A stretch of 42,016 nt of DNA from Polyangiaceae bacterium (GCA_029261965.1 JAJDAH010000226.1:1-42016); one strand, 5' to 3'; positions 14,484-31,928 are shown, counted from the first letter of the stretch. Program-made: numbers and translations. Notes: generated from the sequence alone by a model not told the origin.

Positions 14484-14840
14484 TTAGGAGCTCGAGCCGT
14501 GCGGCCGCCGCTGGGTCGAGCGACGCCGTGAAATGAAGTCGCTCAACTGCCGCGCCGCGCCGTCGAACGCATCGTTTACGGCGACGTAAAGGTCCGCGTG
14601 CTCGTCGCCCTTGTCCCTCGAGCGGCCCACCACCAGCTCCTCGCCTGGCAAGCGAAGGTCGATGCGGACCCGAAAATTGTTCCCATGCTGGTGGTGGCGA
14701 TGGGGGGCCTCCAGAGTCACACGGCACCCGCTGAGCTCACCATGCAGGGCTTCGAGCTTTTTCGATCGCTCGCGAACCAGCTCCTCGACGCCGTCAGAAT
14801 GCTCGATTCCGTGAAACGTGACTTGTACGCGCGATGTCAT
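14484..14840 (-). CDS. hpf: Ribosome hibernation-promoting factor / RaiA family
   Basis: 118 aa, the short type without the C-terminal dimerisation domain. The fold begins VQVTFHGIEHSDGVEELVRERSKKLEALH and has the conserved late block HADLYVAVNDAFDGAARQL. These proteins bind the 30S decoding site in starved or energy-depleted cells and silence or protect ribosomes. ATG start at 14840, 6 nt after the CBS gene stop, so it is almost certainly co-transcribed with it. Its presence among USPs and a CBS protein downstream of a sigma-54 element supports a growth-arrest or dormancy role for the operon. The symbol follows the family; raiA would be equally fair. Confidence 0.88.
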   Translation of the reverse strand: MTSRVQVTFHGIEHSDGVEELVRERSKKLEALHGELSGCRVTLEAPHRHHQHGNNFRVRIDLRLPGEELVVGRSRDKGDEHADLYVAVNDAFDGAARQLSDFISRRRSTQRRPHGSSS

Positions 14841-14846
14841 GGCTGG

Positions 14847-15260
14847 TTACTCGAACAAAGGCCGCGCGGCGCGCAACACGTCGACGTAGCTCACGATTCC
14901 CACCAAGGCGCCGTTGTCAGCGGAAACGACTGGAACAGCACCGATCTTCTGCTCGAGCATCAAGTCGATGGCGTCCTTGACCTCGGTCTCGGGGCCGATC
15001 GAAAGCACGTCGCCGGCCATCAAGCCGCTCACGGGCGACGCGAGCCGTTGTTTTGCTTCCTCCGGCGAGTCGAGGGCGCTCAGCTCCGGCAACATGAAAC
15101 TGCGGAGATCTCGGTCACTGATGATTCCGACGAGATCCCCGTCGTCGAGAACCGGCAAGTGGCGAGCGTCGAGCTCGAGCAGAGTGGCCAACACCTCCTG
15201 CACGCTCTGCTCCGCCTGAACCACCACGGGGCTCTTCGTCATGACTTCTTCGACGACCAT
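14847..15260 (-). CDS. CBS-pair domain protein
   Basis: 137 aa from the ATG at 15260, which has an AGGAG ribosome-binding site. It consists of two CBS motifs: about 5-60 (VMTKSPVVVQAEQSVQEVL ... LVGIISDRDLR) and ~78-130 (GLMAGDVLSIGPETEVKDAI ... LVGIVSYVDVLR). CBS pairs bind adenosyl compounds (AMP, ADP, ATP, SAM, NADH) and report energy state. With no other domain it resembles mycobacterial Hrp1, a hypoxia-induced CBS protein of the DosR regulon. It lies 23 nt after the USP at 15284-15772 and 6 nt before hpf, in one operon. Confidence 0.9.
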   Translation of the reverse strand: MVVEEVMTKSPVVVQAEQSVQEVLATLLELDARHLPVLDDGDLVGIISDRDLRSFMLPELSALDSPEEAKQRLASPVSGLMAGDVLSIGPETEVKDAIDLMLEQKIGAVPVVSADNGALVGIVSYVDVLRAARPLFE

Positions 15261-15283: not shown

Positions 15284-15772
15284 TCAGGACACTTTCTTCG
15301 CCACGGCGGGCGCTGGTGCGCTGCGGACGGTCATCACCGGGCATGGCGCCCGACGGACCACCTTCTCCGCCACACTTCCGAGGAAAAGGTGCTGGAAACC
15401 ACTTCGACCGTGGGTGCCCATCACGATGAGATCGTGCTCACCGCGAGCGGCCTCCTCGACGATGACGGCGGCCGCGCCTCCCATTTCCACCCGGGGCCGC
15501 AGGTTAGTCGTCAGCTCGAGCCCTCGCTTGGCCACCAGGGTTTCGAGGTCCTTTGCGGCTCGCTTCTGCGAGTACTCGGCGAGAGACGACGCCGCGCCAT
15601 CGTCCTCCATCCACACCATCAAGTCGGGGCGAATGAATCGCGGCGGCTCCCACACATGAAGCACCTCCACCGCGGCATCGAAGCGCGCTGCGAGTTCGAG
15701 CGCCTGGCTCAGCGCGAGCTCCGAACCGTCCGAGAAGTCGACGGGAACCAGAATCTTCTTGAGCTGCGGCAT
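15284..15772 (-). CDS. Universal stress protein (UspA family)
   Basis: 162 aa from the ATG at 15772. The first strand is KKILVPVDFS; the ATP-binding signature G-x2-G-x9-G-S is present as GTHGRSGFQHLFLGSV, so it is the nucleotide-binding type. The C-terminus is Ala/Pro/Val-rich after VRS. A near-perfect sigma-54 element ends so close to the ATG that the transcript would have almost no leader, and no good Shine-Dalgarno exists. It is the first gene of a reverse-strand run: USP, CBS, HPF, PGPGW-like, MopB, ATP-cone. It is divergent from another USP (15992) across a 219-bp control region. Confidence 0.93.
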   Translation of the reverse strand: MPQLKKILVPVDFSDGSELALSQALELAARFDAAVEVLHVWEPPRFIRPDLMVWMEDDGAASSLAEYSQKRAAKDLETLVAKRGLELTTNLRPRVEMGGAAAVIVEEAARGEHDLIVMGTHGRSGFQHLFLGSVAEKVVRRAPCPVMTVRSAPAPAVAKKVS

Positions 15773-15785
15773 GACGTACTCACAC

Positions 15786-15801
15786 AGCAAGCCACGTGCC
15801 G
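15786..15801 (-). promoter_or_regulatory. Sigma-54 (-24/-12) promoter for the USP-CBS-HPF operon
   Basis: On the reverse strand the 16-mer reads CGGCACGTGGCTTGCT and matches the sigma-54 consensus TGGCACG-N4-TTGCW at every defined position but the first. GG and GC are exactly 10 nt apart. The C of the GC lies 15 nt from the A of the USP ATG, so the predicted start of transcription is about 3 nt before the ATG. Confidence 0.8.
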
Positions 15802-15842
15802 GCACTGGCATGCCCGAAAGTCGAAGAATGCACCCGGCACCA

Positions 15843-15855
15843 CGCAAACGTTGCG
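15843..15855. promoter_or_regulatory. Candidate enhancer palindrome CGCAA-N3-TTGCG in the divergent USP control region
   Basis: A perfect 13-bp palindrome, CGCAAACGTTGCG. It lies 41 bp upstream of the reverse-strand sigma-54 element (15786-15801) and 107 bp upstream of the forward one (15963-15978), and could serve both. The same motif is found upstream of other sigma-54 elements in the island (23711, 16429, 20548). It is proposed as a binding site for the NtrC-type activator encoded at 23878; that assignment is inference. Confidence 0.55.
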
Positions 15856-15962
15856 CCGACACCTGCCTCGACGCAGATTCTGCCATCGAGTTCCGCCCCG
15901 CCGCACCCCGAACACTGAAAGCGGAGCACTCGACGCGCAATGAACGCCGTTGCGTCGCTCGA

Positions 15963-15978
15963 CGGCACGGGCGTTGCT
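15963..15978 (+). promoter_or_regulatory. Sigma-54 (-24/-12) promoter for the USP at 15992
   Basis: CGGCACGGGCGTTGCT matches the consensus TGGCACG-N4-TTGCW at all defined positions but the first, with exact GG-N10-GC spacing. The C of the GC is 15 nt before the ATG, giving a predicted leader of about 3 nt, the same geometry as the divergent USP promoter. Confidence 0.8.
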
Positions 15979-15991
15979 GGTCGATTGCTCG

Positions 15992-16420
15992 ATGGCATCA
16001 TCGTGGACTGCGCAGCGAGTCTTGGTTCCTGTCGACCTCTCTGGACCGTCAGCTAGGGCTCTCGAGGTCGCCGGGTCGATCTGTGAAAGTGTGGACGGAC
16101 TGCACGTCGTCCACGTTCTGCCCGATCTGAGCGCCACTGAGCCCGGCGTCGTTTGGGAAACCGTCACCGACGAAACCCGCACGGAACATGCGGAAAACGC
16201 CGTTCGGAAGTGGATGCCAGAAAAGCTTCGCTCGGTTCGAGTCAGCGTTCGCATCGGCAACGCCGCCCGGGAAATCACCGCACTTGCCGCCGAGCAAGCC
16301 AGCGAGCTCATCGTATTGTCGTCGCACGGACGTACGGGAACTGCCCGCCTGTTGATCGGATCGGTCGCCGAGCACGTCGTTCGCCTCGCGAGCTGTCCCG
16401 TGCTGGTGCTGCGAAGTTGA
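15992..16420 (+). CDS. Universal stress protein (UspA family)
   Basis: 142 aa from the ATG at 15992; a TTG at 15950 would add 14 residues but lies upstream of the sigma-54 element and so outside the predicted transcript. The first strand is QRVLVPVDLS; the nucleotide-binding loop reads SSHGRTGTARLLIGSV, with the first Gly of the usual G-x2-G replaced by Ser. No Shine-Dalgarno is present, fitting a leaderless transcript from the element at 15963-15978. It is divergent from the USP-CBS-HPF operon and followed after 110 bp by the next USP, which has its own sigma-54 promoter. Confidence 0.92.
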   Translation: MASSWTAQRVLVPVDLSGPSARALEVAGSICESVDGLHVVHVLPDLSATEPGVVWETVTDETRTEHAENAVRKWMPEKLRSVRVSVRIGNAAREITALAAEQASELIVLSSHGRTGTARLLIGSVAEHVVRLASCPVLVLRS

Positions 16421-16428
16421 GCGCCTCG

Positions 16429-16441
16429 CGCAACCCGTGCG
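16429..16441. promoter_or_regulatory. Candidate enhancer palindrome (one mismatch) upstream of the USP at 16531
   Basis: CGCAACCCGTGCG matches CGCAA-N3-TTGCG at 9 of 10 defined positions. It lies 35 bp upstream of the sigma-54 element at 16477-16492, a spacing close to that at the other promoters. Its role as an activator site is inferred from this repeated arrangement. Confidence 0.45.
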
Positions 16442-16476
16442 TGGGGGTGCGGGGCGACCGGCGCAGAAACCCGTCT

Positions 16477-16492
16477 TGGCACATCGTGTGCA
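16477..16492 (+). promoter_or_regulatory. Sigma-54 (-24/-12) promoter for the USP at 16531
   Basis: TGGCACATCGTGTGCA contains the perfect -24 box TGGCAC and the -12 core TGCA with exact GG-N10-GC spacing. The predicted start is near 16503, leaving a ~28-nt leader with a good ribosome-binding site (GGGAGGAG) before the ATG at 16531. Confidence 0.8.
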
Positions 16493-16530
16493 CCCTCTCG
16501 TTCAGCCCCTAGCGGGGAGGAGACAAGGCC

Positions 16531-17196
16531 ATGAACAACCCAAAAAGCACCCATCCCTACATCGTCGTCGTCGGTGTCGACTACTCCGACACGGGAACTC
16601 GAGCGCTGCACCGCGCGTTCGAGCTGGCCAGCCGTGAGAGCAACGCCGAACCTCACGTCGTTGCCGTCGCGGGTGCCTCCGGACCCATGCTCCGGGTCGA
16701 GCTACCAGACGAAATCGCCGTCGTGACCATCGAGGAGGCGTCGAAACACCTAAAAGACTACGTTCAGAAAGAGCTCGAGAAGTTCCAGAAAGGGGGCGGT
16801 AGTCTGAATTTTGCTCGAGTCGTCACGCACGTTCGCGTAGGCGCGCCCGCCCACGAGGTTGCCCAATTGGCAGCGGATCTCGAAGCGGACATCGTCGTCG
16901 TCGGCACTCACGGTCGAAGGGGCGCGCAGCGCCTTCTGCTCGGCTCGGTTGCCGAAGGCACTGTCCGACTCACGCAATGTCCGGTCCTAGTCGTGCGGCC
17001 CAAGGACTACTCTGATGGCATCAAAGTCCCTCAGATCGCCCCACCATGTCCCCGGTGCGTCGAAGCGAGAAAGGCGTCAGGCGGCGAGAACCTCTGGTGC
17101 TCGCAACACAGCGAGCGACATGGCGCGCGTCACACCTACCACTACGTCAGTCGAAACTCCGGAGCCCGCGAGAACATGGGCCTGACGTTTCGATAA
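16531..17196 (+). CDS. Universal stress protein with C-terminal Cys/His-rich (zinc-ribbon-like) extension
   Basis: 221 aa, longer than a plain USP. Residues 1-~155 are a USP fold: IVVVGVDYS first strand and the ATP motif GTHGRRGAQRLLLGSV. A C-terminal extension (~165-221) has CPRC, then WCSQH about 18 residues on, then a His-rich stretch ending HTYHY. Two Cys pairs plus His look like a small zinc-binding knuckle. ATG start at 16531 with a strong GGGAGGAG ribosome-binding site. It is driven by its own sigma-54 element. It is convergent with the USP at 17218-17679, 21 bp between stops. The extension may bind a metal, a partner or RNA; none is shown by the sequence alone. Confidence 0.9.
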   Translation: MNNPKSTHPYIVVVGVDYSDTGTRALHRAFELASRESNAEPHVVAVAGASGPMLRVELPDEIAVVTIEEASKHLKDYVQKELEKFQKGGGSLNFARVVTHVRVGAPAHEVAQLAADLEADIVVVGTHGRRGAQRLLLGSVAEGTVRLTQCPVLVVRPKDYSDGIKVPQIAPPCPRCVEARKASGGENLWCSQHSERHGARHTYHYVSRNSGARENMGLTFR

Positions 17197-17217
17197 ACCG
17201 GCCCTCTGGGGGGCGTC

Positions 17218-17679
17218 TCACTCGTCGGTGGGACCGCGCACGGTGAGCACTGGGCACGGCGCACGCCGAACCACACGCTCGGCGACGCTGCCGATGAGCA
17301 TGTGCTTGATTCCCCGGCGTCCGTGCGTGCCGATGACAATCAAGTCGTAACCGCCCTCGAGAGCGAGGCGCTCGATCGTCTCATGGGGAACGCCGTCGAG
17401 AACTTCGTTCGAAACCTTCACCGATCCGGCATCGACCTTGGCGAGGAATTCCGCCATCTCGGCCCCGTAGTATTCGCGGGCAAAGTCCTCGATCGGAACG
17501 TGTTTTTGTTCCGCGGTGGTCACCATCATTCCTGGTTGAACGTACCGAGCCGGTTCGACCACGTGAACGACGTGGACCTCGGAGCCGAGCTTCGTCGCCA
17601 TCTCGATGGCGAGTTGCAGCCCGGAGGCGCTACACGCGGAAAAATCGGCGGGAACTAGGATCTTGTCGATGGATCGCAT
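17218..17679 (-). CDS. Universal stress protein (UspA family)
   Basis: 153 aa from the ATG at 17679. The first strand is DKILVPADFS; the ATP-binding signature is GTHGRRGIKHMLIGSV; the C-terminus ends in the usual PCPVLTVRG block. No Shine-Dalgarno precedes the ATG (the upstream bases are CCCCC), fitting the near-leaderless transcript predicted from the sigma-54 element at 17692-17707. It lies 62 bp after the P-type ATPase stop on the same strand, so it can be read both from its own promoter and by read-through. Confidence 0.92.
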   Translation of the reverse strand: MRSIDKILVPADFSACSASGLQLAIEMATKLGSEVHVVHVVEPARYVQPGMMVTTAEQKHVPIEDFAREYYGAEMAEFLAKVDAGSVKVSNEVLDGVPHETIERLALEGGYDLIVIGTHGRRGIKHMLIGSVAERVVRRAPCPVLTVRGPTDE

Positions 17680-17691
17680 GGGGGAATCGCC

Positions 17692-17707
17692 TGCATTGGG
17701 CATGCCA
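17692..17707 (-). promoter_or_regulatory. Sigma-54 (-24/-12) promoter for the USP at 17218-17679
   Basis: On the reverse strand TGGCATGCCCAATGCA matches the consensus at all but two defined positions (C to T in the -24 box, T to A in the -12 box), with exact GG-N10-GC spacing. The C of the GC is 14 nt from the ATG, predicting a ~2-nt leader. A TTGCG half-site lies at 17736-17740, but the full palindrome is not present. Confidence 0.65.
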
Positions 17708-17741
17708 GCGCCATCTTGCCACACACGCCCGTCTCTTGCGC

Positions 17742-20486
17742 TCAGGCAGAACCCCGAGCATCGGCGCCGGACCGGTCGCCAGGAGCGGTCCACGCTCCCG
17801 CCAGCCGCCGGGTCACCACTTTCTCCAGCTCGCCTACCACGAGCGCGCTCGCGCTCACGGCGAGGGCGATGGCGACCTCTCCGGGCGAAAGCGGTTGGGT
17901 GCGAAAAACCTCGTCGACCACGGGGACGTAGACGGCGATCCCTTGCAGGAGCAACGCCACACCGAACGCCGCGAGGAGACTTCGGTTGCCGAACGCACCG
18001 AGGGCGAAAATGGAATCCGTACGCGACCGACAGTTGAACGCGTGAAATAGCGGCGCAATCGCGAGCACCGTGAACGCCATCGTGCGAGCGGTCGTGATGT
18101 CTCCAGATTGCGCGTGGTACGCAAACACCAGGAGGCCGAGCAGCGCCATCCAAATCCCGTGGCCCACGAGCCAAACGCCGTCCACGAAAGAAACGAATCC
18201 AGCGCCCGGATCTCGGGGCCCGCGGGCCATCGGGTCGAGATGGACGGGTTCTCGACCGAGCGCCAGCGCGGGCAGCCCATTCGTGATGAGATTGATCCAC
18301 AGAATTTCCGTGGGAGTGAGGATCGGCGGCCAGCCGAGAAGCGACGCGAAGAAGACGGCAAGCACGAGGCCGGTGTTTACGGACAGCAGAAACAGAATGA
18401 ACTTCTGAATGTTGGAGAAGATGACCCTGCCCTCTTCGATCGCGGCGACGATGCTGGCGTAGTTGTCGTCGGACAGCACCAAATCGGCCGCCTCCCGTGT
18501 GACGTCGGTGCCCCCCTTGCCCATGGCGATGCCGATCGTCGCCGCCTTGAGCGCCGGGGCGTCGTTCACGCCGTCGCCAGTCATCGCCACCGACATTCCC
18601 ATCGCATCGAATGCCTGGACGATGCGCAACTTGTGGAGCGCGGTCGCGCGCGCCACGATCGCGACACGAGGCAACCTGCTAGCCAGCTCCTGATCGTTCA
18701 TCTCGTCGATTTGGGCGCCGCTCAAGAGCTCCCCCTCGACTAGCCCAACCTCGTTCCCGATGGCCCGGGCCGTCTTCGGGTGGTCTCCGGTGATCATCAT
18801 CGTCGCCACGCCAGCCTTTTTGGCCGTGAGTATGGCCGCGGGGACCTCGGGGCGCGGGGGGTCACTCATCCCGACGAGCCCGATGAGCGTCATCTCGGTT
18901 TCGAGAACGTCCAACGGCGTCGAATGCGCTGCTCGTCGCTCGGCAATGGCGAGCACGCGGAGGCCGTCCGCGGCCCACGCCTCCATTCGAAGAGCCAGCT
19001 CCTCTCGGAGCGCTGCCTCCAGAGGCACCGGCTCCCCCGCTTCGTCGAGCACGGATACGCACGCCGCGACGACCGATTCGAAGGCGCCGTGGGTGTACCC
19101 GACGACCCCGCCCTCACGCTCGGCGACCCGGACAGTGGCCAGCCGCCGCTCGCGATCGAACGGTCTCTCCCCCGTGATCAGTCGTTCGTCGGCGCCGAAG
19201 TCAGCCCTGGCGTACAAGTCGAGCAACGCGCCGTCGGTGGGGTTTCCAGCGATGTGGCGACCACCCTTCGCATCCACTGAAACCGACGCGGCCGGGGCGA
19301 ATCGGCAGGCGGCAACGAGGCGCCGGAGCACACCGTGGCGCTCGGGTGAAAGCTCTTTGCCCCCTCGATATAGACGCAGCAAGGCGGTGTCGTCTCCAAC
19401 GTCCGCTCGAAGATGGGCCGTCGCCAGTCGTCGAACCGTCATTTGGTTCTGGGTCAGAGTCCCGGTTTTGTCCGAGCAAATGACCTGCGCGGAGCCGAGA
19501 GCCTCCACGGCGGGGAGCCGGCGCACGAGCGCGTTGCGTGCCGCCATCCGCTGGACTCCGAGCGCCAACACGATGGTGGTCACTGCCGGGAGCCCCTCGG
19601 GGATCGCGGCGACCGCGAGACTCACCGCGGTCAGGAACAAGAGAGAGAAGCCGGCGTCGGTGCGCAACGCCTGCACCGCGAAGACGATCATGCCGATGGC
19701 GACGCACCCCACGACGACCCAAGCCCCAAAACGCCGAAGCTCCGCCTGCAAAGGTGTTTCTGGAGCATCGACGGCGCCGAGCATTCCGGCAATCAGACCC
19801 AGCTCGGTCTGCATGCCGGTCGCGACGACCACACCCGTAGCTCGGCCCGCCGTGACATGAGTGCCCATGAAGCACAGAGTCTCGCGCTCGGCCAGCGCCG
19901 TTTCGTCGGGCAGCTCAGCGGTCGAGTCCTTGCGGACGGGAGCACTTTCGCCCGTGAGTGCCGCCTCGGAGACAGCAACGTCCGAAGCCTCGAGCAGGCG
20001 CAGATCTGCCGGGACACGGTCGCCCTCGCCCAGAAATACCACGTCTCCAGTGACCAGCTCCACCGCGCCGACAGTGGCGCGCTGTCCGTCGCGCGACACG
20101 CGCGCCACCGGTGCTGTCATGCTTTGAAGAGCCTCGAGTGCGGACTCGGCCTTCCGCTCCTGCACGAAGCCGATGACGGCGTTCATCAAGACGATGATCC
20201 CGATCGCGATGGCATCGCCGTAGCGTGCGAGCGTCGACTGCGGCGCATCGTCGTACAGCGCGAGCACCACGGCGATGACGGCCGCCACGAGCAGCGCGAC
20301 TACGGTCACATCGCCGAATTGCCCGATGAACCGGCGCACGGGGCCAGGCTTGGGCCGTTCGGCGAGCTGGTTCGGACCATCCGCGAGTAGACGTCGCCTC
20401 GCCTCGCTGGTCGACAAGCCGGCGTTTCCGGTTCGCAGCGCGTCACAGACGGCGTCGGGTGCCAGCGAGTGCCACGGGCGCTTCAT
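17742..20486 (-). CDS. P-type cation-transporting ATPase (type II, Ca/Mn or CtpF-like)
   Basis: 914 aa from the ATG at 20486. N-terminal cation-ATPase domain (~5-70), actuator with TGES (178-181), the M4 motif AIPEGLP (~294-300), the phosphorylated Asp339 in CSDKTGTLTQ, an N-domain, the hinge MTGDGVNDAPALK, then WINLITNGLPALALG in M6 and a C-terminal cation-ATPase domain with four hydrophobic segments. This is the SERCA/PMA-like class, not a heavy-metal CPx type. The ion is not certain: PEGLP with NTG and WINLxTNGLPALALG fits Ca2+/Mn2+ exporters and mycobacterial CtpF. It is divergent from the globin-coupled kinase gene and has a sigma-54 element with near-leaderless geometry. Confidence 0.93.
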   Translation of the reverse strand: MKRPWHSLAPDAVCDALRTGNAGLSTSEARRRLLADGPNQLAERPKPGPVRRFIGQFGDVTVVALLVAAVIAVVLALYDDAPQSTLARYGDAIAIGIIVLMNAVIGFVQERKAESALEALQSMTAPVARVSRDGQRATVGAVELVTGDVVFLGEGDRVPADLRLLEASDVAVSEAALTGESAPVRKDSTAELPDETALAERETLCFMGTHVTAGRATGVVVATGMQTELGLIAGMLGAVDAPETPLQAELRRFGAWVVVGCVAIGMIVFAVQALRTDAGFSLLFLTAVSLAVAAIPEGLPAVTTIVLALGVQRMAARNALVRRLPAVEALGSAQVICSDKTGTLTQNQMTVRRLATAHLRADVGDDTALLRLYRGGKELSPERHGVLRRLVAACRFAPAASVSVDAKGGRHIAGNPTDGALLDLYARADFGADERLITGERPFDRERRLATVRVAEREGGVVGYTHGAFESVVAACVSVLDEAGEPVPLEAALREELALRMEAWAADGLRVLAIAERRAAHSTPLDVLETEMTLIGLVGMSDPPRPEVPAAILTAKKAGVATMMITGDHPKTARAIGNEVGLVEGELLSGAQIDEMNDQELASRLPRVAIVARATALHKLRIVQAFDAMGMSVAMTGDGVNDAPALKAATIGIAMGKGGTDVTREAADLVLSDDNYASIVAAIEEGRVIFSNIQKFILFLLSVNTGLVLAVFFASLLGWPPILTPTEILWINLITNGLPALALGREPVHLDPMARGPRDPGAGFVSFVDGVWLVGHGIWMALLGLLVFAYHAQSGDITTARTMAFTVLAIAPLFHAFNCRSRTDSIFALGAFGNRSLLAAFGVALLLQGIAVYVPVVDEVFRTQPLSPGEVAIALAVSASALVVGELEKVVTRRLAGAWTAPGDRSGADARGSA

Positions 20487-20498
20487 TCGCGCAATCGA

Positions 20499-20514
20499 TG
20501 CACGCGGCGTGCCT
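20499..20514 (-). promoter_or_regulatory. Sigma-54 (-24/-12) promoter for the P-type ATPase
   Basis: On the reverse strand AGGCACGCCGCGTGCA matches the consensus except at the first base and one T of the -12 box, with exact GG-N10-GC spacing. The C of the GC is 14 nt from the ATPase ATG, predicting a ~2-nt leader. Confidence 0.7.
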
Positions 20515-20547
20515 CGCCCATATTCTGCGCCCACCTCACCTGGAGGG

Positions 20548-20560
20548 CGCAAGATTTTCG
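20548..20560. promoter_or_regulatory. Candidate enhancer palindrome (one mismatch) between the ATPase and globin-kinase genes
   Basis: CGCAAGATTTTCG matches CGCAA-N3-TTGCG at 9 of 10 defined positions. It lies 33 bp upstream of the ATPase sigma-54 element, and 80 bp upstream of the divergent globin-coupled kinase ATG. A role for the kinase gene too is possible, but no sigma-54 element was found on that side. Confidence 0.45.
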
Positions 20561-20640
20561 CCCCGCCGTGGTTTGGAGTACGAAGGTGGCAGCCAAAGCC
20601 GCCCAAGTCGGCGGCATGGCGATTGCGTAAGTCCGAATCG

Positions 20641-21780
20641 ATGGACCCCCAAAAGTACGCGAGCATCTGCGAGTACGTCGATTTCGACGAAACGACCAGC
20701 GCGACCCTCGCCACGATCCATCCACACGCGGCCCCCCACTTCGAACGAATCGTCGACGATTTCTACGAAGCCATCGACAGGCACCCCGAAGCCCGCGACG
20801 TCATCACCAGCCGGGAGCAAACCGAGCGGCTGAAAAAAACCCTCGTCTCCTGGCTCGATAGATTGCTGCGGGGGCCCCATGACGCGGCGTACGTTGAGGC
20901 TCGATCACGAATCGGGCGAGTGCACGTCCGCATCAACCTCCCGCAGCAGTTCATGTTCACCGCGATGAACCGCATTCGGACTCAGCTCCTCGGGGTAGTG
21001 CACGACACGCTGCCCAACCGCGAGCAATGTGTGACTGCCGCTCATGCTGTCAATGCCGCACTCGACATCGAGTTGGCGATCATGCTCGATACGTACCGAG
21101 AAGATCTCCTCGCCAAGCAACGCGCCACCGAGCGCCTCGCAACGATAGGGCAACTCGCCGCGAGCATCGGCCACGAGCTCCGAAACCCCCTCGGCATCAT
21201 CGAGTCGTCGTTGTTCCTGATGCAGAAGCAAGTCGAGAAGGCGGCGATCGACGACGAAGTGTTCGAGAAACACCGCGCTCGAATCTCGAACCAGATCAAG
21301 CATTGCGGCAAGACGATCACCGACTTGCTCGAGCTCGCGCGGGATCGCCCACCGCGCCGGCGGCCTCTCGAAGTGGCGAGCGTGGTCGACAGCGCCCTCG
21401 ACACCGCGGCGATCTCGCCTGAAATCACCGTGAAAATCGTAATCTCCGACGGGCTGACTCTCACCGGCGATGGCGACCAGATCCGTCAGGTGTTGATCAA
21501 TCTGTTGAGCAACGCGGGCGCCGCGCTCGACGGAAGTGGCGGGATTGCCATCGAGGCCGAACGCGAGAAGGACGGCACGGTCATGCGAGTCCGGGACGAC
21601 GGGCCTGGGATCCCCAAGGCCGACCACGAACGCGTGTTCGAAGCCCTCTACACCACGAAAGCGAAGGGCACCGGACTCGGCCTAGCCCTCTGTCGGCGGA
21701 TCATCACCGCGCACGGCGGAGAGATCGGGCTCGAGCCTGCAAACCACGGCGCGTGCTTCCGTGTCTGGTTGCCCGACTAA
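20641..21780 (+). CDS. Globin-coupled sensor histidine kinase
   Basis: 379 aa from the ATG at 20641. Residues 1-~155 form a sensor globin (protoglobin-like): the proximal heme ligand is expected to be His95 in the diagnostic IGRVHVRINLPQQF segment. Residues ~165-235 are the HisKA dimerisation domain with phospho-acceptor His178 (GHELRNPLG), and ~265-379 the HATPase domain with the N-box (INLLSNAGAAL), G1 (DDGPGIP) and G2 (GTGLGLAL) boxes. Related kinases, such as AfGcHK from Anaeromyxobacter, sense O2 or heme redox state. No membrane spans, so it is cytoplasmic. It is followed after 57 bp by a receiver-only protein. No Shine-Dalgarno is evident. It is the obvious signal input for the island. 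Confidence 0.93.
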   Translation: MDPQKYASICEYVDFDETTSATLATIHPHAAPHFERIVDDFYEAIDRHPEARDVITSREQTERLKKTLVSWLDRLLRGPHDAAYVEARSRIGRVHVRINLPQQFMFTAMNRIRTQLLGVVHDTLPNREQCVTAAHAVNAALDIELAIMLDTYREDLLAKQRATERLATIGQLAASIGHELRNPLGIIESSLFLMQKQVEKAAIDDEVFEKHRARISNQIKHCGKTITDLLELARDRPPRRRPLEVASVVDSALDTAAISPEITVKIVISDGLTLTGDGDQIRQVLINLLSNAGAALDGSGGIAIEAEREKDGTVMRVRDDGPGIPKADHERVFEALYTTKAKGTGLGLALCRRIITAHGGEIGLEPANHGACFRVWLPD

Positions 21781-21837
21781 TTCCGTGATCCGCGGCAACC
21801 CGTTGCGAACAGGCATACGCGCTCTTAGGGTAGCGAC

Positions 21838-22215
21838 GTGGCCAGCGCAACGACCATCCTCGTGGTCGACGATCAAGAGGAGCTAGCGGAGAACCTCGCC
21901 GAAATCCTCGAGGGCGCGGGTTACCGAACGCTCGTCGCTCACACGGCGGAGGACGCCGTCGAAGCCGTGCGCACACGAGAGGTCGCCGGCGTGGTCGCCG
22001 ACTACCGACTACCCGGGCAGAACGGGGTCGATATGATCGCGTCACTCCGCGCCGCCGGCTCGACCGCGCCAGTGGTGGTCGTCACCGGTTTCGCCGACGA
22101 CGCGGTCGTTGGCGACGCCGAGCGAGCCGGAGCACTCGAAGTGTTGGCAAAACCGGTCGACGTGCAGAAATTGCTGGGCATAGTGGGCGACGCCACCGAG
22201 AGAAAGCGGCACTGA
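21838..22215 (+). CDS. Single-domain response regulator (REC)
   Basis: 125 aa starting at GTG 21838. A receiver domain only: the acidic pair is in LVVDDQEE, the phospho-acceptor Asp in VVADYRLPGQNG, and the conserved Lys in LAKPVD. It lies directly after the globin-coupled kinase and before the REC-PAS kinase, so it is probably the phosphoryl acceptor of one or both. As in AfGcHK systems, the partner is an adjacent receiver without a DNA-binding domain. The 3' end overlaps the sigma-54 element of the next gene. Confidence 0.9.
   Translation: MASATTILVVDDQEELAENLAEILEGAGYRTLVAHTAEDAVEAVRTREVAGVVADYRLPGQNGVDMIASLRAAGSTAPVVVVTGFADDAVVGDAERAGALEVLAKPVDVQKLLGIVGDATERKRH
22163..22175. promoter_or_regulatory. 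Weak variant of the enhancer palindrome upstream of the hybrid kinase promoter
   Basis: TGCAGAAATTGCT keeps GCA and TTGC of the CGCAA-N3-TTGCG motif but differs at three of ten positions. It is noted only because its distance to the sigma-54 element at 22207 (31 bp) is the same as at the other promoters. It lies inside the receiver coding region. Confidence 0.2.
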
Positions 22216-22222
22216 AGTTGCA
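22207..22222 (+). promoter_or_regulatory. Sigma-54 (-24/-12) promoter for the REC-PAS histidine kinase
   Basis: CGGCACTGAAGTTGCA matches the consensus at all defined positions except the first and the G after the -24 CAC, with exact GG-N10-GC spacing. It spans the stop codon of the receiver gene. Predicted start about 22233, leaving a ~23-nt leader before the ATG at 22256. Confidence 0.7.
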
Positions 22223-22255
22223 CGTGGGAACCAGTAGCGCCGCCGGGCTAGTGCC

Positions 22256-23701
22256 ATGAGCCGAGCGCGCGGTGGCCGCGCCATGTCCAGCAACCTGGTC
22301 CTCATCGTCGATGACAACCGCGACCTCGCGGAAAACATCGCCGAAATTCTCAGCAGCTCGGACACGTTGAAGATCGACTGCCGCGTATGCGGGGACGCAA
22401 AAACGGCGCTACGCGAAGCGGAGCAATCGGACGTCGATCTGGCGCTGGTGGATCTTCACCTCCCCGATGGAGACGGTTTCGAGCTCATCAGCGGGCTTCG
22501 CGAGCGCTCTCCGTTCGCCCAGGTGGTCATCGTGACCGGCGACACCACCCTCGAGAGCGCGATCGAAGCGGTTCGCCAGGACGCGTTCGGCTACGTCCTG
22601 AAGCCGTTTCACGGCGTCGACCTCATCGGCACCGTCGAGCGTGCCATCAAGCAATCGTCGCTCGAACGCGAAAGCGAGGAGCTCCGGCGCGCCCTCGAGG
22701 CCTCGGAGGACCGCCATCGCCAAGTCGTCGAGAACATGCCGGCGTTCGTGCTCGCACTCGACCATCGGGGCCAAATCCTATTGTGGAATCGGCGCTTGGA
22801 GGAAGTCAGCGGTTACCCTCACAGCGAAATGCTCGGCACGTCCGGCCGCGACCTCATTGGCGAGACGGGGGGCGAGCGGCGGCTTCCGATCAAGAGTGGC
22901 GGCCATCGGCTCGTTCGTTGGGTCCTTCAACAGGTGCCGGACGGTGAAGAAAACGAGGTCGAGACCTACGCCATGGGCGTCGACGTCTCCGTGGAATACG
23001 AGCGTCTGCGCGACAAGCTCCGGACCGAGCGCCTCGCCGCCGTCGGAACCCTCGCCGCAGGTTTGGCTCACGAGGTACGCAATCCCCTAAACTCGGCGAC
23101 GCTACAGTTGCAAGTGCTCGATCGGCGAATCGACAAGGGTCAAACCGACGCGGAATCCCTGAAGAGCGTCACTCGGACCGTTCGAGAAGAAATCGCCCGA
23201 CTCGACAACCTCGTCAGCGACTTTTTGGCGTTCGCACGGCCGCGCACACTCGAACTTCGCTCCGAAGCCCTCAACGATCTACTCACGTCGTCATGCGAGC
23301 TGGTCGCGCCCGAGGCGTCGGCCGCCGGCGTCGATATCGTGCGCGACTTCGACGACGCCGTCGGAAACGTGCGCCTCGACTCGGAACGGCTGAAACAAGT
23401 GTTGCTCAACCTCTTTCGAAACGCGCTCGAAGCGATGCCCGACGGCGGAACACTGACCGTGTCGAGTCGTCGAGCCGATTCCGCCGGTTTCGCCAGTATC
23501 GAAGTTGGCGATACCGGTCAGGGATTCGAAGACGACGCGCCGATCTTCGACGCCTTCTTCACGTCGAAGGAGGGCGGCACCGGGCTCGGCTTGGCGATCG
23601 TGCACCGCATCGTTTCCGAGCATGGGGGCATGGTCACCGCGGAGTCCGCTCCGGGTCGGACCGTGCTGCAGGTCCGACTGCCCCAACCTCGCTCGGCTTA
23701 G
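22256..23701 (+). CDS. REC-PAS-histidine kinase
   Basis: 481 aa. An N-terminal receiver (~12-130, phospho-Asp in LALVDLHLPDGDG, Lys in VLKPFHG) is followed by a short coiled segment, a PAS domain (~155-255, VVENMPAFVLALDHRGQIL), HisKA with the acceptor His in LAHEVRNPLNS, and HATPase with FRNALEAM, DTGQGF and GTGLGLAI. The N-terminal receiver suggests its activity is set by phosphorylation from another kinase, plausibly the globin-coupled one, with the PAS adding a second signal. No membrane spans. The ATG at 22256 is used; a later in-frame ATG at residue 10 also precedes the domain. It lies 176 bp upstream of the NtrC-type regulator that it most likely phosphorylates. Confidence 0.9.
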   Translation: MSRARGGRAMSSNLVLIVDDNRDLAENIAEILSSSDTLKIDCRVCGDAKTALREAEQSDVDLALVDLHLPDGDGFELISGLRERSPFAQVVIVTGDTTLESAIEAVRQDAFGYVLKPFHGVDLIGTVERAIKQSSLERESEELRRALEASEDRHRQVVENMPAFVLALDHRGQILLWNRRLEEVSGYPHSEMLGTSGRDLIGETGGERRLPIKSGGHRLVRWVLQQVPDGEENEVETYAMGVDVSVEYERLRDKLRTERLAAVGTLAAGLAHEVRNPLNSATLQLQVLDRRIDKGQTDAESLKSVTRTVREEIARLDNLVSDFLAFARPRTLELRSEALNDLLTSSCELVAPEASAAGVDIVRDFDDAVGNVRLDSERLKQVLLNLFRNALEAMPDGGTLTVSSRRADSAGFASIEVGDTGQGFEDDAPIFDAFFTSKEGGTGLGLAIVHRIVSEHGGMVTAESAPGRTVLQVRLPQPRSA

Positions 23702-23710
23702 CCAGGTTTG

Positions 23711-23723
23711 CGCAATTTTTGCG
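23711..23723. promoter_or_regulatory. Candidate enhancer palindrome CGCAA-N3-TTGCG upstream of the NtrC-type regulator
   Basis: A perfect copy, CGCAATTTTTGCG, in an AT-rich stretch that stands out from the GC-rich background. A related but degenerate sequence with GCGCA and ACGCG follows at 23729-23744. It lies 81 bp upstream of the sigma-54 element at 23805, a normal distance for an NtrC-type enhancer, and suggests that the regulator controls its own gene. Confidence 0.55.
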
Positions 23724-23804
23724 TTTTGGCGCATTATTTACGCGTTTCGCCAGGATCCAGCACAGCACGGCCAGTGTTCACCGCTCTTTATCGAGCTACT
23801 TCGC

Positions 23805-23820
23805 CGGCACGACGCGTGCA
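23805..23820 (+). promoter_or_regulatory. Sigma-54 (-24/-12) promoter for the NtrC-type regulator operon
   Basis: CGGCACGACGCGTGCA matches the consensus at all but two defined positions, with exact GG-N10-GC spacing. Predicted start about 23831, a 47-nt leader, with a GGAG ribosome-binding site before the ATG at 23878. Confidence 0.75.
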
Positions 23821-23877
23821 GTCACACGGCCGGACGCGAGGAACTCGCCGAGCCGGGTCGAAGGACGGAGAGAGCAC

Positions 23878-25284
23878 ATGGGCAATCGGGGACGAATTCT
23901 GGTGGTCGATGACGAGTCGAACGCTCGCAACGCGCTCGCGGAGATCCTGAAGGAGGAGGGATTCGGCGTCGAAACCGCCGCCGACGGCTTCAAGGGCCTG
24001 TCGCGGGCGGCCGACTTCGGGCCAGATCTCGTGCTGACGGACCTCAAGATGCCAGGGATGGACGGCATCGAATTCTTGAGGAAGCTACGAGACGCCGAGC
24101 CCGACGTTGCTGTCGTCGTCATGACCGCCTTCGGCGCGGTGGACACTGCCGTCGAGGCGATGCGGGCGGGTGCCGCCGACTACCTCACCAAGCCACTCAA
24201 CACAGACGAGCTCCTGGTGGTGCTCGATCGGGCGCTGGAGCATCGGCAACTGCGACGCGAGACCACAGAGCTCAAGACACAGTTGGCGGAGCGCTACCGC
24301 TTCGAAAACATCGTTGGGTCCTCCCAAGAAATGCAGCAGGTCTTCAAAACCGTGGCGCAAATCGCGCCGAGCCGCGCCACCGTGCTTTTGACGGGGGAGT
24401 CCGGGACCGGCAAGGAGCTCGTGGCCGCAGCCATCCATCATCGGTCCCCACGGAAGGATGGGCCGTTCGTCCGGCTGCATTGCGCGGCACTCGCGGAGAA
24501 CCTTCTCGAGAGCGAGCTCTTCGGCCATGAACGCGGATCGTTCACCGGCGCGGATCGCCGGCGCGAGGGTCGGTTCGAACTGGCCGACGGCGGAACGCTA
24601 TTTCTCGACGAAGTAGGAGAGATTCCCGTCGCGACGCAGGTGAAGCTGCTCCGAGTTCTGCAAGAGCACGAATTCGAAAGAGTGGGTGGCAACGAAACGA
24701 TTCGCACTGACGTTCGCCTCATCGCCGCCACGAATCAGAGCCTGAAGAAGATGGTCGACGCCGGCACCTTCCGCGAAGATCTCTACTATCGGCTCAATGT
24801 CATCAACCTGCGCATGCCTGCTTTGCGCGAGCGCGCGTCCGACATCCCTGCTCTGGCTACACACTTTCTGCAACAGTACGCTTCCGAGAACGCCAAGTCG
24901 GTCGAACGCATCAGCGAGGACGCGCTATCGAGACTCGTCAACTACGATTGGCCGGGCAACGTTCGTGAGTTGGAGAACGTGATCGAGCGAGCTGTCGTCC
25001 TCGCCGAGAGCTCGACCATCGAACCTCAGCAGCTGCCCGCCGAGGTCGCACCGACCACGGACAACGGCGCCGCGCCACACATTCCCGGCTCATCGATGGC
25101 CGACGTCGAGCGCTTCGCGATTCTCGAAACCCTGGAAGCCATGGGCGGCTCCACGACACGCGCCGCCGAGATGCTCGGCATCAGTGTGCGGAAGATCCAG
25201 TACAAGCTGCACGAGTACGGCGCAGCTCCGAAAAGCGGCGTGCCCGTCATCGAACAAGACGACCCAAAGGAGGCCCCGAATTGA
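23878..25284 (+). CDS. NtrC-family sigma-54-dependent response regulator
   Basis: 468 aa in the classic order: receiver (~5-120; Asp55 in LTDLKMP, Lys in LTKPLN), AAA+ sigma-54 activator domain (~145-380), and a Fis-type helix-turn-helix at the C-terminus (TTRAAEMLGISVRKIQYKL). The AAA+ part has Walker A GESGTGKE, Walker B GGTLFLDEVGE and the sigma-54-contacting loop GSFTGA (220-225), a minor variant of GAFTGA. It should open sigma-54 promoters when phosphorylated. It is preceded by its own sigma-54 element and a perfect enhancer palindrome, so it is likely autoactivated. The stop codon overlaps the TTG start of the USP at 25281. It is the best candidate for the regulator of all seven sigma-54 promoters here. 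Confidence 0.95.
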   Translation: MGNRGRILVVDDESNARNALAEILKEEGFGVETAADGFKGLSRAADFGPDLVLTDLKMPGMDGIEFLRKLRDAEPDVAVVVMTAFGAVDTAVEAMRAGAADYLTKPLNTDELLVVLDRALEHRQLRRETTELKTQLAERYRFENIVGSSQEMQQVFKTVAQIAPSRATVLLTGESGTGKELVAAAIHHRSPRKDGPFVRLHCAALAENLLESELFGHERGSFTGADRRREGRFELADGGTLFLDEVGEIPVATQVKLLRVLQEHEFERVGGNETIRTDVRLIAATNQSLKKMVDAGTFREDLYYRLNVINLRMPALRERASDIPALATHFLQQYASENAKSVERISEDALSRLVNYDWPGNVRELENVIERAVVLAESSTIEPQQLPAEVAPTTDNGAAPHIPGSSMADVERFAILETLEAMGGSTTRAAEMLGISVRKIQYKLHEYGAAPKSGVPVIEQDDPKEAPN

Positions 25285-28027: not shown

Positions 28028-31000
28028 TCAGCGTCTCTTGCGACGCCTGCGGAGCCCCACCGCCCCAAGCGCGACAAGAACTCCCCACGGCGTGAGCTGG
28101 CTGACCGGAGCGCCCGCGGCTCGGCACGAGCATCCTCCCTTGGCTCTCACATCGCCGGGCGCGACTCCGGCGTCGGTGCCTGCATCCCCGCCATCCACGG
28201 GTTGATCCGGAAGGACGCAACGCCCGTCGCTGTCGACTGGCAGCGGCGCCGCAGCTCCCAACCGGGTCCCTTGATCGAGCTCGACGTCGACATTGCCGGT
28301 GTTGCGATTGTCGTGATGAAAGCTCTCCCAGTCGATTGTCCCATCCGACGAGCCATTCGTGTGCCAGGCGTAGAGCCACCCCGCCCTCGTCGGAACCACC
28401 ACCTCGAGGGTGTCGTCACCATCGAGGTCGCCGACGGCGGCGGTCGATGCGACCCATTGTCCCGTGAACTTCGGCCACCCCTCGGGCTCCCGTCCACAAG
28501 CGTCGGCGGCGTGCACGTAGTAGCCACCGCTGCCGATGATGACCTCCGGATAGCCATCCCCGGAGACGTCGGCGATCACCTGGTTGTTGAAGAACGTGAA
28601 ATCTTCGATGACCACCGGGCTCGCCGGCATCATCTTGCCCGTGCCGAGATCCCACATGCTGAGCATGAACTGGGCGGTACCGCCCCGCGTCCCGCTCGCC
28701 TGGAGATTCTGAGCCACGCTCAACGACGCCCCCGAGGCCGTCACGTCCGGGAGGCCGTCCTGATTCAAGTCACCGAGCGCCGGCTGGGCGAACAACGGGA
28801 AGAAGGTATCGGGCAGAATCGCCTTCGAGTCCGGCCCGAAGATCGTCGCGTTTTCCACGCCCCGCGTCGGCTCCATCGTGAAGGGGTCGATGCGCTCGGG
28901 CAGCGCATTGGAAGGTGTCGAGCTGAGGAGCCGCTGAGTGCCTGGGTCGGCGGGCACGATGAGCGGAGCACTCGCGTTGCCGTGGAACACGGCCTCGAGC
29001 TTCCCGTCGCCGTTCACGTCGCCAACGATGGGCGAGTTCGGCACCCCTTCGGCAACCAGCGGGAACAGGTTGAAAGACACGACGCCGACGGGCCAATTCG
29101 GGAAGTATGGCGTTCCGCCGGGCGTGTCGTTGCCCCGTCCGTCCACCAGATAAAACGCACCGGCGGTGCTCCCGGTGCCGAGTCGCTCGTTCGAGCCGAC
29201 AACGAGGTCCGGGATGCCATCCTCGTTGAAGTCACCGACAGCCGGTGTCGTCATGATCCGGTTGTATTCGACCTCGAGGGTCGGGTGATGGATGCGCACG
29301 GGCCACCCTGGCAACACGCTGCCGTCGGCCTTGTACACGTGGACGAAACCATCGAAAGCGGCCTGAATGATCTCGAAGCCACCGTCACCGTCCATGTCGG
29401 CGAGCACCGGCGCGGCGAACGCCCCGCGAGTAATGCGAAACTCCGTATCCATGCACAGCGGGGGCCGCGGGCTGTCGTCGAGCGGACAAGAGGGCACCGC
29501 CGGAAGTGTCACGGGCCACCCCGGCAAAGTCTGGCCGTCGTTGCCGATGACGTAGATCGTGCCCTTGTAAGTGCTGAGCACGATGTCGATCGCGCCGTCT
29601 CCGTTCATGTCGGCTAGCGCGGGCGCCTGAGTGGCCGGCTCGCGGGCAACGTCCGGGTCGACGCCGTCGGGCGAGGTGTACCCGGGCGCTGCCCTGTAGT
29701 CCGGGCGGCTCGGATCCCCATCGAGCCCGTCGAGCAACTTGGTTCGAAACGGAAAGCCGGCAATTTGCTCGGGCGTTCCGCTCGCGAGGCTCCAAACGTT
29801 CACGACACCATCGCTCGTCGCGTTCACGATGTCCCGGACTCCGTCGCCATCGATGTCCGCGAGCTTCGGGGCGGTCTCACCCGACGCTCCGATGTAGATC
29901 GGAAAGCCGTCGACGAGATCCGGGTCCTCGTGAACGTAGTAGGCGCGACGGAGCTCACCAGGAACGTCGCCGATGCTTCCACCGTAGTGCGCGACCGAGC
30001 GCACCCGAACCGTAATCGTGAAATCGTTTTCTCCGAGCTGGCTGTCAGGGTCTCGCTCGTGGGTGACGTCGAGGTCTCGAATGTCGAGCTCCGCGAGCGG
30101 TTGTCCGTCCGAACCGATCGCGGGGTCGTTGCTCGGAACGTTGTCCATCTGCTTGATGACCTGAAACTCGCTGTCGGACGGCTCCACCCCTGGAGCCCAC
30201 TCGACGATGACGTCGTAACTGTTGGCACGCCTCGCGCTGACCGTGCCCATGATGGGAACCGGTCCGGCGACTTGGTCCCGGTAGAGCACCTCGAACCAAT
30301 AGGGCCGCGTGATGTCGACGTCCGGGGGAATGCGGCCGTCGCGAACCCACTCCACGGCTGTATTGGCGTTGACTCGTCCGTATCCAAACCGTTGGTCGAA
30401 GCCCTCCTTCGACGCGAACTGTCGAGAGCCCGGATCCGCGCTCTCGGGGACAAAAATGTCGTCCGCGGTCATCGTCAGAAGCTGGGCGACTTCTCCGGCG
30501 TTGAGCGGCGGCGTCAGCCCGACCTCGGCGCCCATGGAGTAGACGAGCCCGGCAACCCCGGAGAGACGGCCCACCGCCTCGCTCGAGCAGCCGGTGCCGG
30601 ACGCCGAGAGGTAGTTTTGAGCCCCGTAGTTGGTGCACGTATTGAAGTGCAGAAAGCTCTCGGCCGTCGTGCTCTGTTGGTCCGAGCCCAGCATCGTGAT
30701 CGCATGCACCGGGAGCGTGTGATTCGCCGTCGCCGGCACGTTCTGATGGCGCGAGTTCTCGTCCGCCATGCTCGCGATGATCACCGTCCCGTTCGCCCAC
30801 GCGTAGTCCATCGCGCGTTGAGCGAAGCGACTCATGAACACCGTGCCGAGCGCCTCTTGCACGACCTTCGCCCCGATGTCGGTGGCATAGACCACCCCTT
30901 GGGAGTAGTCCTGAACGTCGGTGATGAAACTGTCACCGACGCGCAGCGGAACGAAGCGGCAAAGGGGGCATACGCCAATGTCGCCCATGCCATTGTTTCC

Positions 31001-31786
31001 TTGGGACGCCGAATCGTTCGCCTCGCCAGTCCCGTGACCGAACCGGGTGTCGTCGTAAGGATCGTTGTCGTTCTTGAAGAAGTCCCAACCCGAGATGTCG
31101 TCGACGTAGCCATTCGCGTCGTCGTCCGTCCCGTCGGAGAAGTTGAGAATGAGATCTCCGGCGTCGAGAATGCCGTTCCTATTGGCATCGCCCTTCGGGT
31201 TCGAGCCCGTGGCATCCGGCTGGAGCCTGGGGTCGTCGGCCCAATCCGACACGGTGACGATGCCGTCGCCGTTGCAATCGAAGCCGTTGATCGCGGTGCA
31301 GGCGCTACTGTCCGCCATCAGCGGCTTGTGCGGCTCGAGCTCACCGAGATTGAGGAACGCCTTCTGGGCGAGATCGGCGTGATCCCACTCGATTCCGGAG
31401 TCGAGCACCGCAATCACCGTCTCGTCTGTGCCGATGGTGTGTCGCCACGCGAGATCGATGCTCATGCCCGACGCCGTTTCTTCGGGACGAATGGGTGGCG
31501 CTCCGGTCGAGCGATCCGGAATGAACGAATAGAACTGCCAAAGGCCAGGCGAACGATCGGCCGCGCGATCGGCGGCGACATACCCGTAGCCTGGGTCGTT
31601 GGGCCAGTTCGTGCTGTCCGCGAGATCACCGGACGTCGCCGTGACCGGCGGCGGCCAGGCGGCATCTACCCGGCTCTCGAGTCCGACGACGCCCAGAGCT
31701 CCAGCGGCGAGCAAGAGCGCTAGCCGACGACCGGTGAACCGGTTCGAGCGAGCAAAAGCAAACGAAAAGAAACGAGCGTTCGACAT
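28028..31786 (-). CDS. Subtilisin-like (S8) surface protease with FG-GAP repeats and MYXO-CTERM anchor
   Basis: 1252 aa from the ATG at 31786, which has an AGGAG ribosome-binding site. Signal peptide ~1-43. The S8 domain has Asp129 (VLDSGIEWDH), His251 (FGHGTGEAN), oxyanion Asn344 and Ser401 (GCSSEAVG). Between Asp and His sits an insert (~160-250) with dockerin/EF-hand-like Ca loops, including DCNGDGIVTVSDW and DANRNGILDAGDL. After a fibronectin-like region come about eight FG-GAP/VCBS blades of the DxDGDGxxDIV type from ~680 on, enough for a beta-propeller. The C-terminus has GGCSC, a hydrophobic span and RRRRKRR, a MYXO-CTERM sorting signal. It probably degrades proteins or processes partners at the cell surface. 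It is divergent from the pseudokinase gene. Confidence 0.92.
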   Translation of the reverse strand: MSNARFFSFAFARSNRFTGRRLALLLAAGALGVVGLESRVDAAWPPPVTATSGDLADSTNWPNDPGYGYVAADRAADRSPGLWQFYSFIPDRSTGAPPIRPEETASGMSIDLAWRHTIGTDETVIAVLDSGIEWDHADLAQKAFLNLGELEPHKPLMADSSACTAINGFDCNGDGIVTVSDWADDPRLQPDATGSNPKGDANRNGILDAGDLILNFSDGTDDDANGYVDDISGWDFFKNDNDPYDDTRFGHGTGEANDSASQGNNGMGDIGVCPLCRFVPLRVGDSFITDVQDYSQGVVYATDIGAKVVQEALGTVFMSRFAQRAMDYAWANGTVIIASMADENSRHQNVPATANHTLPVHAITMLGSDQQSTTAESFLHFNTCTNYGAQNYLSASGTGCSSEAVGRLSGVAGLVYSMGAEVGLTPPLNAGEVAQLLTMTADDIFVPESADPGSRQFASKEGFDQRFGYGRVNANTAVEWVRDGRIPPDVDITRPYWFEVLYRDQVAGPVPIMGTVSARRANSYDVIVEWAPGVEPSDSEFQVIKQMDNVPSNDPAIGSDGQPLAELDIRDLDVTHERDPDSQLGENDFTITVRVRSVAHYGGSIGDVPGELRRAYYVHEDPDLVDGFPIYIGASGETAPKLADIDGDGVRDIVNATSDGVVNVWSLASGTPEQIAGFPFRTKLLDGLDGDPSRPDYRAAPGYTSPDGVDPDVAREPATQAPALADMNGDGAIDIVLSTYKGTIYVIGNDGQTLPGWPVTLPAVPSCPLDDSPRPPLCMDTEFRITRGAFAAPVLADMDGDGGFEIIQAAFDGFVHVYKADGSVLPGWPVRIHHPTLEVEYNRIMTTPAVGDFNEDGIPDLVVGSNERLGTGSTAGAFYLVDGRGNDTPGGTPYFPNWPVGVVSFNLFPLVAEGVPNSPIVGDVNGDGKLEAVFHGNASAPLIVPADPGTQRLLSSTPSNALPERIDPFTMEPTRGVENATIFGPDSKAILPDTFFPLFAQPALGDLNQDGLPDVTASGASLSVAQNLQASGTRGGTAQFMLSMWDLGTGKMMPASPVVIEDFTFFNNQVIADVSGDGYPEVIIGSGGYYVHAADACGREPEGWPKFTGQWVASTAAVGDLDGDDTLEVVVPTRAGWLYAWHTNGSSDGTIDWESFHHDNRNTGNVDVELDQGTRLGAAAPLPVDSDGRCVLPDQPVDGGDAGTDAGVAPGDVRAKGGCSCRAAGAPVSQLTPWGVLVALGAVGLRRRRKRR

Positions 31787-31928
31787 CGGTCTCCTGGCAG
31801 CGATTGGGGCGCGGGCGGCGGCTCGCCGGAAGTACAACGGCAGGGGAAAAAGCGGTCTGGGGAGCGTTTTCGCGAGGTTAGCACGAACCCGCGGACCGCC
31901 CGAACTGGTACTCTTGTTCGTCTCGGCC

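Follow-up and report, generated by a model that had tools for sequence, protein, structure and literature searches.

Start-adjacent sigma54 promoter elements and predicted near-leaderless transcripts in an NmpRSTU-like stress cluster of a Polyangiaceae bacterium

We analyzed a 42,016-nt stretch of DNA from a Polyangiaceae bacterium (GCA_029261965.1, JAJDAH010000226.1:1-42016; the window), in which sigma54 promoter elements of the -24/-12 type lie directly before the start codons of five genes of a stress cluster. The explanation that we favour, and hold to be probable, is that the cluster forms an NtrC/sigma54 regulon that responds to oxygen and is similar to the NmpRSTU system of Myxococcus xanthus, in which these five promoters would give near-leaderless mRNAs free of a Shine-Dalgarno (SD) sequence, as part of a habit found across the lineage.

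Geometry of the start-adjacent elements

The gap was defined as the number of nucleotides between the C of the -12 GC and the ATG, and predicted leaders were obtained by counting this C as position -12, a geometry taken from Escherichia coli sigma54 sites, where the predicted start lies 19 bp from the motif centre (PMC4591121). The preliminary description of this DNA had listed four genes (starts at 15772, 15992, 17679 and 20486) with the -12 C at a near-constant distance from the ATG. When all of the elements were re-derived, these gaps proved to be 14, 14, 13 and 13 nt, and the list was found to be slightly understated, as a fifth gene, encoding a protoglobin histidine kinase and starting at 20641, has a gap of 14 nt. 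The elements belong to the universal stress protein (USP) gene USP1, at the head of USP1-CBS-HPF (CGGCACGTGGCTTGCT, 15786..15801, minus strand, C at 15787), to USP2 (CGGCACGGGCGTTGCT, 15963..15978, plus strand, C at 15977), to USP4 (TGGCATGCCCAATGCA, 17692..17707, minus strand, C at 17693), to a P-type ATPase gene (AGGCACGCCGCGTGCA, 20499..20514, minus strand, C at 20500) and to the nmpU-like protoglobin kinase gene (CGGCATGGCGATTGCG, 20612..20627, plus strand, C at 20626). All five preserve GG-N10-GC, with the -24 GG and the -12 GC of the TGGCAC/TTGC consensus, and their predicted leaders are 3, 3, 2, 2 and 3 nt, respectively. The near-leaderless starts proposed earlier thus stand in silico, with promoters placed such that the predicted start is about 0-3 nt from the ATG, although the overall interpretation that had been built upon them is only partly supported.

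As had been stated for the first four genes, no SD sequence is found before any of the five, pairing of the upstream 20 nt with the anti-SD being weak (-2.9 to +0.3 kcal/mol), as compared with -11.0 kcal/mol at 16531 and -7.9 kcal/mol at 23878, both of which are leadered genes. The other three promoters of the cluster had been assigned leaders of 23-47 nt, and their predicted leaders are indeed 28 nt for USP3 (element at 16477..16492, plus strand; 39-nt gap, strong SD), 23 nt for the nmpS-like gene starting at 22256 (sigma54-like element at 22207..22222, plus strand), where the SD is not clear and the evidence is weaker, and 47 nt for the nmpR-like gene (element at 23805..23820, plus strand; SD-like GGAG). 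The start codons are credible, as conserved domain residues come within a few codons of the predicted Met ('ILVPVDFS' in the USPs, 'WHSL' in the ATPase). When gaps are modeled as uniform over 11-60 nt, the probability that five of the eight cluster promoters fall in one 2-nt bin is about 3e-4, so the constancy of spacing exceeds chance locally, as had been argued, and it does so genome-wide as well.

Spacing in the genome and in relatives

For the genome-wide analysis, we searched for GGCAC-N5-TTGC followed by an ATG within 6-36 nt, with the reversed pattern as control. It could be argued that such matches arise by chance in a GC-rich genome; intergenic DNA is GC-rich and the bare motif, with no ATG required to follow, shows no excess over its reversed counterpart (15 vs 13). 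Once an ATG must follow, however, the pattern yields 58 pairs against 11 for the control, sharply positioned, and the cluster itself encodes an NtrC-type regulator and contains enhancer-like sites. A chance origin was accordingly rejected on the reversed-pattern controls, and we regard it as very improbable. Gaps of 11-16 nt account for 29 of the 58 pairs (19% expected if uniform, P = 1.6e-7), and the peak at 13-14 nt alone for 15 (P = 2.9e-6). About 23 credible genes have a gap of 17 nt or less, including those for USPs, a flagellar rod protein, pilin-like proteins and many lipoproteins. A second stress cluster of the same genome (contig C305:22000-41000) contains three USP genes, a paralogue of the ribosome hibernation factor HPF and several sigma54-like sites, with gaps of 12, 13, 21 and 42 nt, among others; the HPF paralogue there has a long leader that bears an SD.

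The same 13-14 peak is seen in 30 relatives from the family and the order, where 60 of the 141 matches listed have gaps of 11-16 nt (P = 2.5e-10). Other classes of the phylum show a weaker peak (22 of 66 matches listed at gaps of 11-16 nt, P = 0.005). Among the matches listed for the Firmicutes sampled, 9 of 44 fall at 11-16 nt and none at 13-14, and the start-adjacent peak is absent from the E. coli chromatin immunoprecipitation data. Start-adjacent cases occur in 20 of the 22 relatives with a credible gene; at gaps of 13-14 nt, 22 of 26 retrieved matches from relatives open a credible gene, as do all 20 further matches, chosen from several groups, at gaps of 13-15 nt. Orthologues also hold the spacing: flgB has gaps of 13 and 14 nt in two different families with differing spacers (loci L394 and L395), and lpxC has a gap of 14 nt in two genomes of deltaproteobacteria that do not belong to the sampled phylum (loci L376 and L380). 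The start-adjacent layout is therefore enriched in the lineage and not confined to it.

Further observations were made in these genomes. Orthologous lipoprotein genes (loci L381-L383 and L377-L379) hold the gap at 13-14 nt, and in several genomes the DNA separating the -12 element from the ATG of unrelated genes is an inverted repeat, GCTTC-N-GAAGC (loci L376-L379). One 3.3-Mb genome of the same order (G019) is an outlier, with 29 strict sigma54-to-ATG matches against 1 for the control among the matches listed, far more per Mb than other relatives. The cluster is not preserved in the HPF-paralogue neighbourhoods of the relatives; in one relative of the order (G025, contig C50, about 9244), the HPF paralogue has its own sigma54 element 13 nt from the ATG and adjoins USP genes.

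Leader classes and alternative explanations

When the credible genes of this genome and its relatives are pooled, two classes of leader can be told apart. An SD-like sequence precedes 11 of the 62 genes at gaps of 11-17 nt, as opposed to 23 of the 32 at gaps of at least 23 nt (P = 6.5e-7), and gaps of 18-22 nt are sparse. In addition, 30 of the 38 genes at a gap of 13-14 nt have C at position -1, as compared with 29 of 61 ordinary ATG starts (P = 0.003); this excess of C is consistent with a pyrimidine-purine start at which the A of AUG would be +1. Lipoproteins, most of them uncharacterised, abound among the near-leaderless sigma54 genes (loci L028, L033, L048, L155, L164, L165, L169 and L172, and L225-L324 of the relatives), a lipobox-like motif being noted in 24 of these 62 genes as against 8 of the 32 long-leader genes.

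These data should be considered when referring to a second explanation, in which the sigma54 promoters are genuine but the main transcripts start further 5', which would lengthen the leaders and leave compact intergenic DNA as the sole cause of the spacing. Dual promoters are common in bacteria, which lends this explanation some weight. Nonetheless, compactness predicts neither the sharp mode at 13-14 nt with few cases at 18-22 nt nor the SD contrast between the leader classes, and orthologues hold the spacing despite different spacers. We therefore find this explanation unlikely, although less so than the others considered here.

A third explanation, put forward in the preliminary description, is that selection in this regulon favoured start-adjacent promoters as a means of translating its mRNAs selectively during ribosome hibernation. 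An HPF-family gene does lie inside the USP1 transcription unit, in one relative of the order the gap before an HPF gene is 13 nt, and it is established that 70S ribosomes can initiate leaderless mRNAs (cited in PMC12340547). However, the same architecture is common to flagellar, pilin-like and lipoprotein genes and to sigma70-type elements, while other USP and HPF genes (USP3 at 16531 and the HPF gene on contig C305) have SD leaders. Furthermore, a structural study of the mycobacterial hibernation factor RafH argued that HPF binding would block the recruitment of leaderless mRNAs as well (PMC10799931). As unrelated gene classes have the same spacing, hibernation-specific selection was rejected; selective translation in hibernation is unsupported, and we give this origin of the layout little credence.

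Returning to the preferred explanation, near-leaderless placement is not limited to sigma54 elements. A search for TATAATN{2,32}ATG in this genome was uninformative (14 matches vs 18 for the control), so a degenerate TANNNT profile was used instead, comparing first with internal ATGs over 703 kb of the genome. Before first ATGs, TANNNT is concentrated at -20 to -11, with a peak at -15 to -12; internal ATGs differ, and the profile before first ATGs in the relatives matches that of this genome. In a published survey, 8 of 33 deltaproteobacterial genomes had leaderless genes, at a mean of 15.8% (PMC3160421). Given this sigma70-type -10 peak and the survey, the sigma54 finding would be one face of a broader leaderless habit. 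The leaderless genes of Deinococcus-Thermus (PMC12340547; survey PMC3160421) are alike in that the promoter core adjoins the start codon at a fixed spacing and without an SD, but they carry the sigma70-type TANNNT, while here the element is a sigma54 -24/-12, dependent on an ATP-using activator. The sigma54 promoters of E. coli (PMC4591121) are alike in the -24/-12 consensus and the C = -12 geometry, but among the listed intergenic sense sites the shortest leader of a protein gene is 18 nt, and none is of 6 nt or less.

No sigma54-adjacent leaderless class is described in the open-access literature that we examined; leaderless mRNAs have so far been tied to sigma70-type promoters. We lean towards the view that fusion of the sigma54 core promoter to the start codon is a default of the lineage, giving activator-gated leaderless mRNAs whose control lies wholly in transcription initiation. 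If so, hypoxia and developmental regulators would be linked directly to SD-independent translation and many start-codon annotations would be corrected, while the presence of both leadered and leaderless genes in the regulon of a single activator would offer a natural set for testing whether leaderless translation changes at low oxygen.

The NmpRSTU-like circuit and its proposed operation

The probable USP1 operon on the minus strand comprises USP1 (15284..15772; Pfam PF00582, 3e-37), followed 3' by a gene for a two-CBS-domain protein (14847..15260; PF00571), preceded by an SD-like AGGAG, and by a gene of the HPF/RaiA family (14484..14840; PF02482, 3e-13). USP2 (15992..16420) and the leadered USP3 (16531..17196) lie on the plus strand, and USP4 (17218..17679) on the minus strand, all with PF00582, followed by the cation P-type ATPase gene (17742..20486, minus strand; PF00122/PF00689/PF00690). 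The regulatory genes are all on the plus strand: the NmpU-like protoglobin histidine kinase (20641..21780; PF11563, 2e-36, with HisKA and HATPase), an NmpT-like single-domain response regulator with a GTG start (21838..22215; PF00072), an NmpS-like receiver-PAS-histidine kinase hybrid (22256..23701; by domain search) and an NmpR-like sigma54 activator of the NtrC type (receiver-AAA-Fis, 23878..25284; PF00158, 4e-74). The genome encodes one rpoN and about 50 NtrC-type activators.

In M. xanthus, NmpRSTU is an oxygen-responsive phosphorelay, the NmpR regulon includes genes for a CBS protein, a USP and a P-type ATPase as well as nmpU, and NmpR sites have a GCA-N5-TGC core near sigma54 promoters, with a spacing of 14-15 nt (PMC11841059). 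The present cluster is alike in its protoglobin kinase, single receiver, receiver-kinase hybrid and NtrC-like regulator, in the order nmpU-T-S and in having candidate GCGCA-N5-TGCGC-like sites close to sigma54 elements, and its presumed targets likewise take in genes for a CBS protein, USPs and a P-type ATPase as well as the nmpU-like gene. It differs in that nmpR comes after nmpS and in containing several USP genes, an HPF gene and a P-type ATPase that resembles a general cation pump.

Sites were scored as NmpR-like if they departed from GCGCA-N5-TGCGC at no more than one position, the consensus being taken from the same report (PMC11841059). Of the ten best sites of the window, seven lie in the intergenic DNA of the cluster, 839 bp in all (P = 1.4e-10). 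Two candidate sites, assigned from this consensus, lie 14 nt apart between the divergent USP1 and USP2 (15842..15885; 15842-15856 is ACGCA-N5-TGCGC and 15871-15885 has the core only), one lies 5' of USP3 (16428..16442, centre at about -68), two lie 16 nt apart between the divergent ATPase and nmpU-like genes (20516-20530 and 20547-20561, spanning 20516..20561) and two lie 4 nt apart 5' of the nmpR-like gene (23710..23743). The GCA-N5-TGC core is present in only some of them, and most lie at distances from the sigma54 elements that would suit enhancers; one, at 20489, overlaps the ATPase promoter itself.

Based on the established biology of NmpRSTU and sigma54, low oxygen would act through the Nmp-like relay, in which the protoglobin kinase, response regulator and hybrid kinase would feed the NtrC-type activator. 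This activator would bind the GCGCA-N5-TGCGC-like enhancers, open poised sigma54 complexes and thereby turn on the USP, CBS, HPF and P-type ATPase genes together with its own sensor. At the five promoters where the -12 element adjoins the coding sequence, we infer that the mRNA would begin on the AUG or 1-3 nt 5' of it and would be translated without an SD, by the leaderless route. Start-adjacent sigma54 placement is widespread in the order, beside a second class of genes with longer, SD-bearing leaders.

This explanation has some drawbacks that should be taken into consideration. The start positions depend on the C = -12 convention, from which actual sigma54 starts deviate by a few nucleotides; additional upstream promoters may also yield longer transcripts of the five genes. 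The resemblance of the architecture at 20641-25284 to NmpRSTU was judged by domains, gene order and binding motif, and no conserved start-adjacent sigma54 site was found in P-type ATPase homologues of other genera. Other non-Firmicute phyla show mild enrichment at gaps of 11-16 nt (18 of 66 matches listed, P = 0.07). Finally, 10 of 21 matches at gaps of 5-10 nt also open credible open reading frames, so the reading-frame filter is imperfect.

The DosR dormancy regulon of Mycobacterium tuberculosis places USP, CBS, HPF and P-type ATPase genes under heme-based sensing. DosR does not belong to the NtrC-type activators of sigma54; the likeness extends to gene content and likely role only.

Elsewhere in the window, a subtilase gene with FG-GAP repeats (28028-31930, minus strand) and a protein kinase-AAA-TPR gene (31599-34994, plus strand) share 332 bp on opposite strands, and one of the two starts is therefore probably misplaced.

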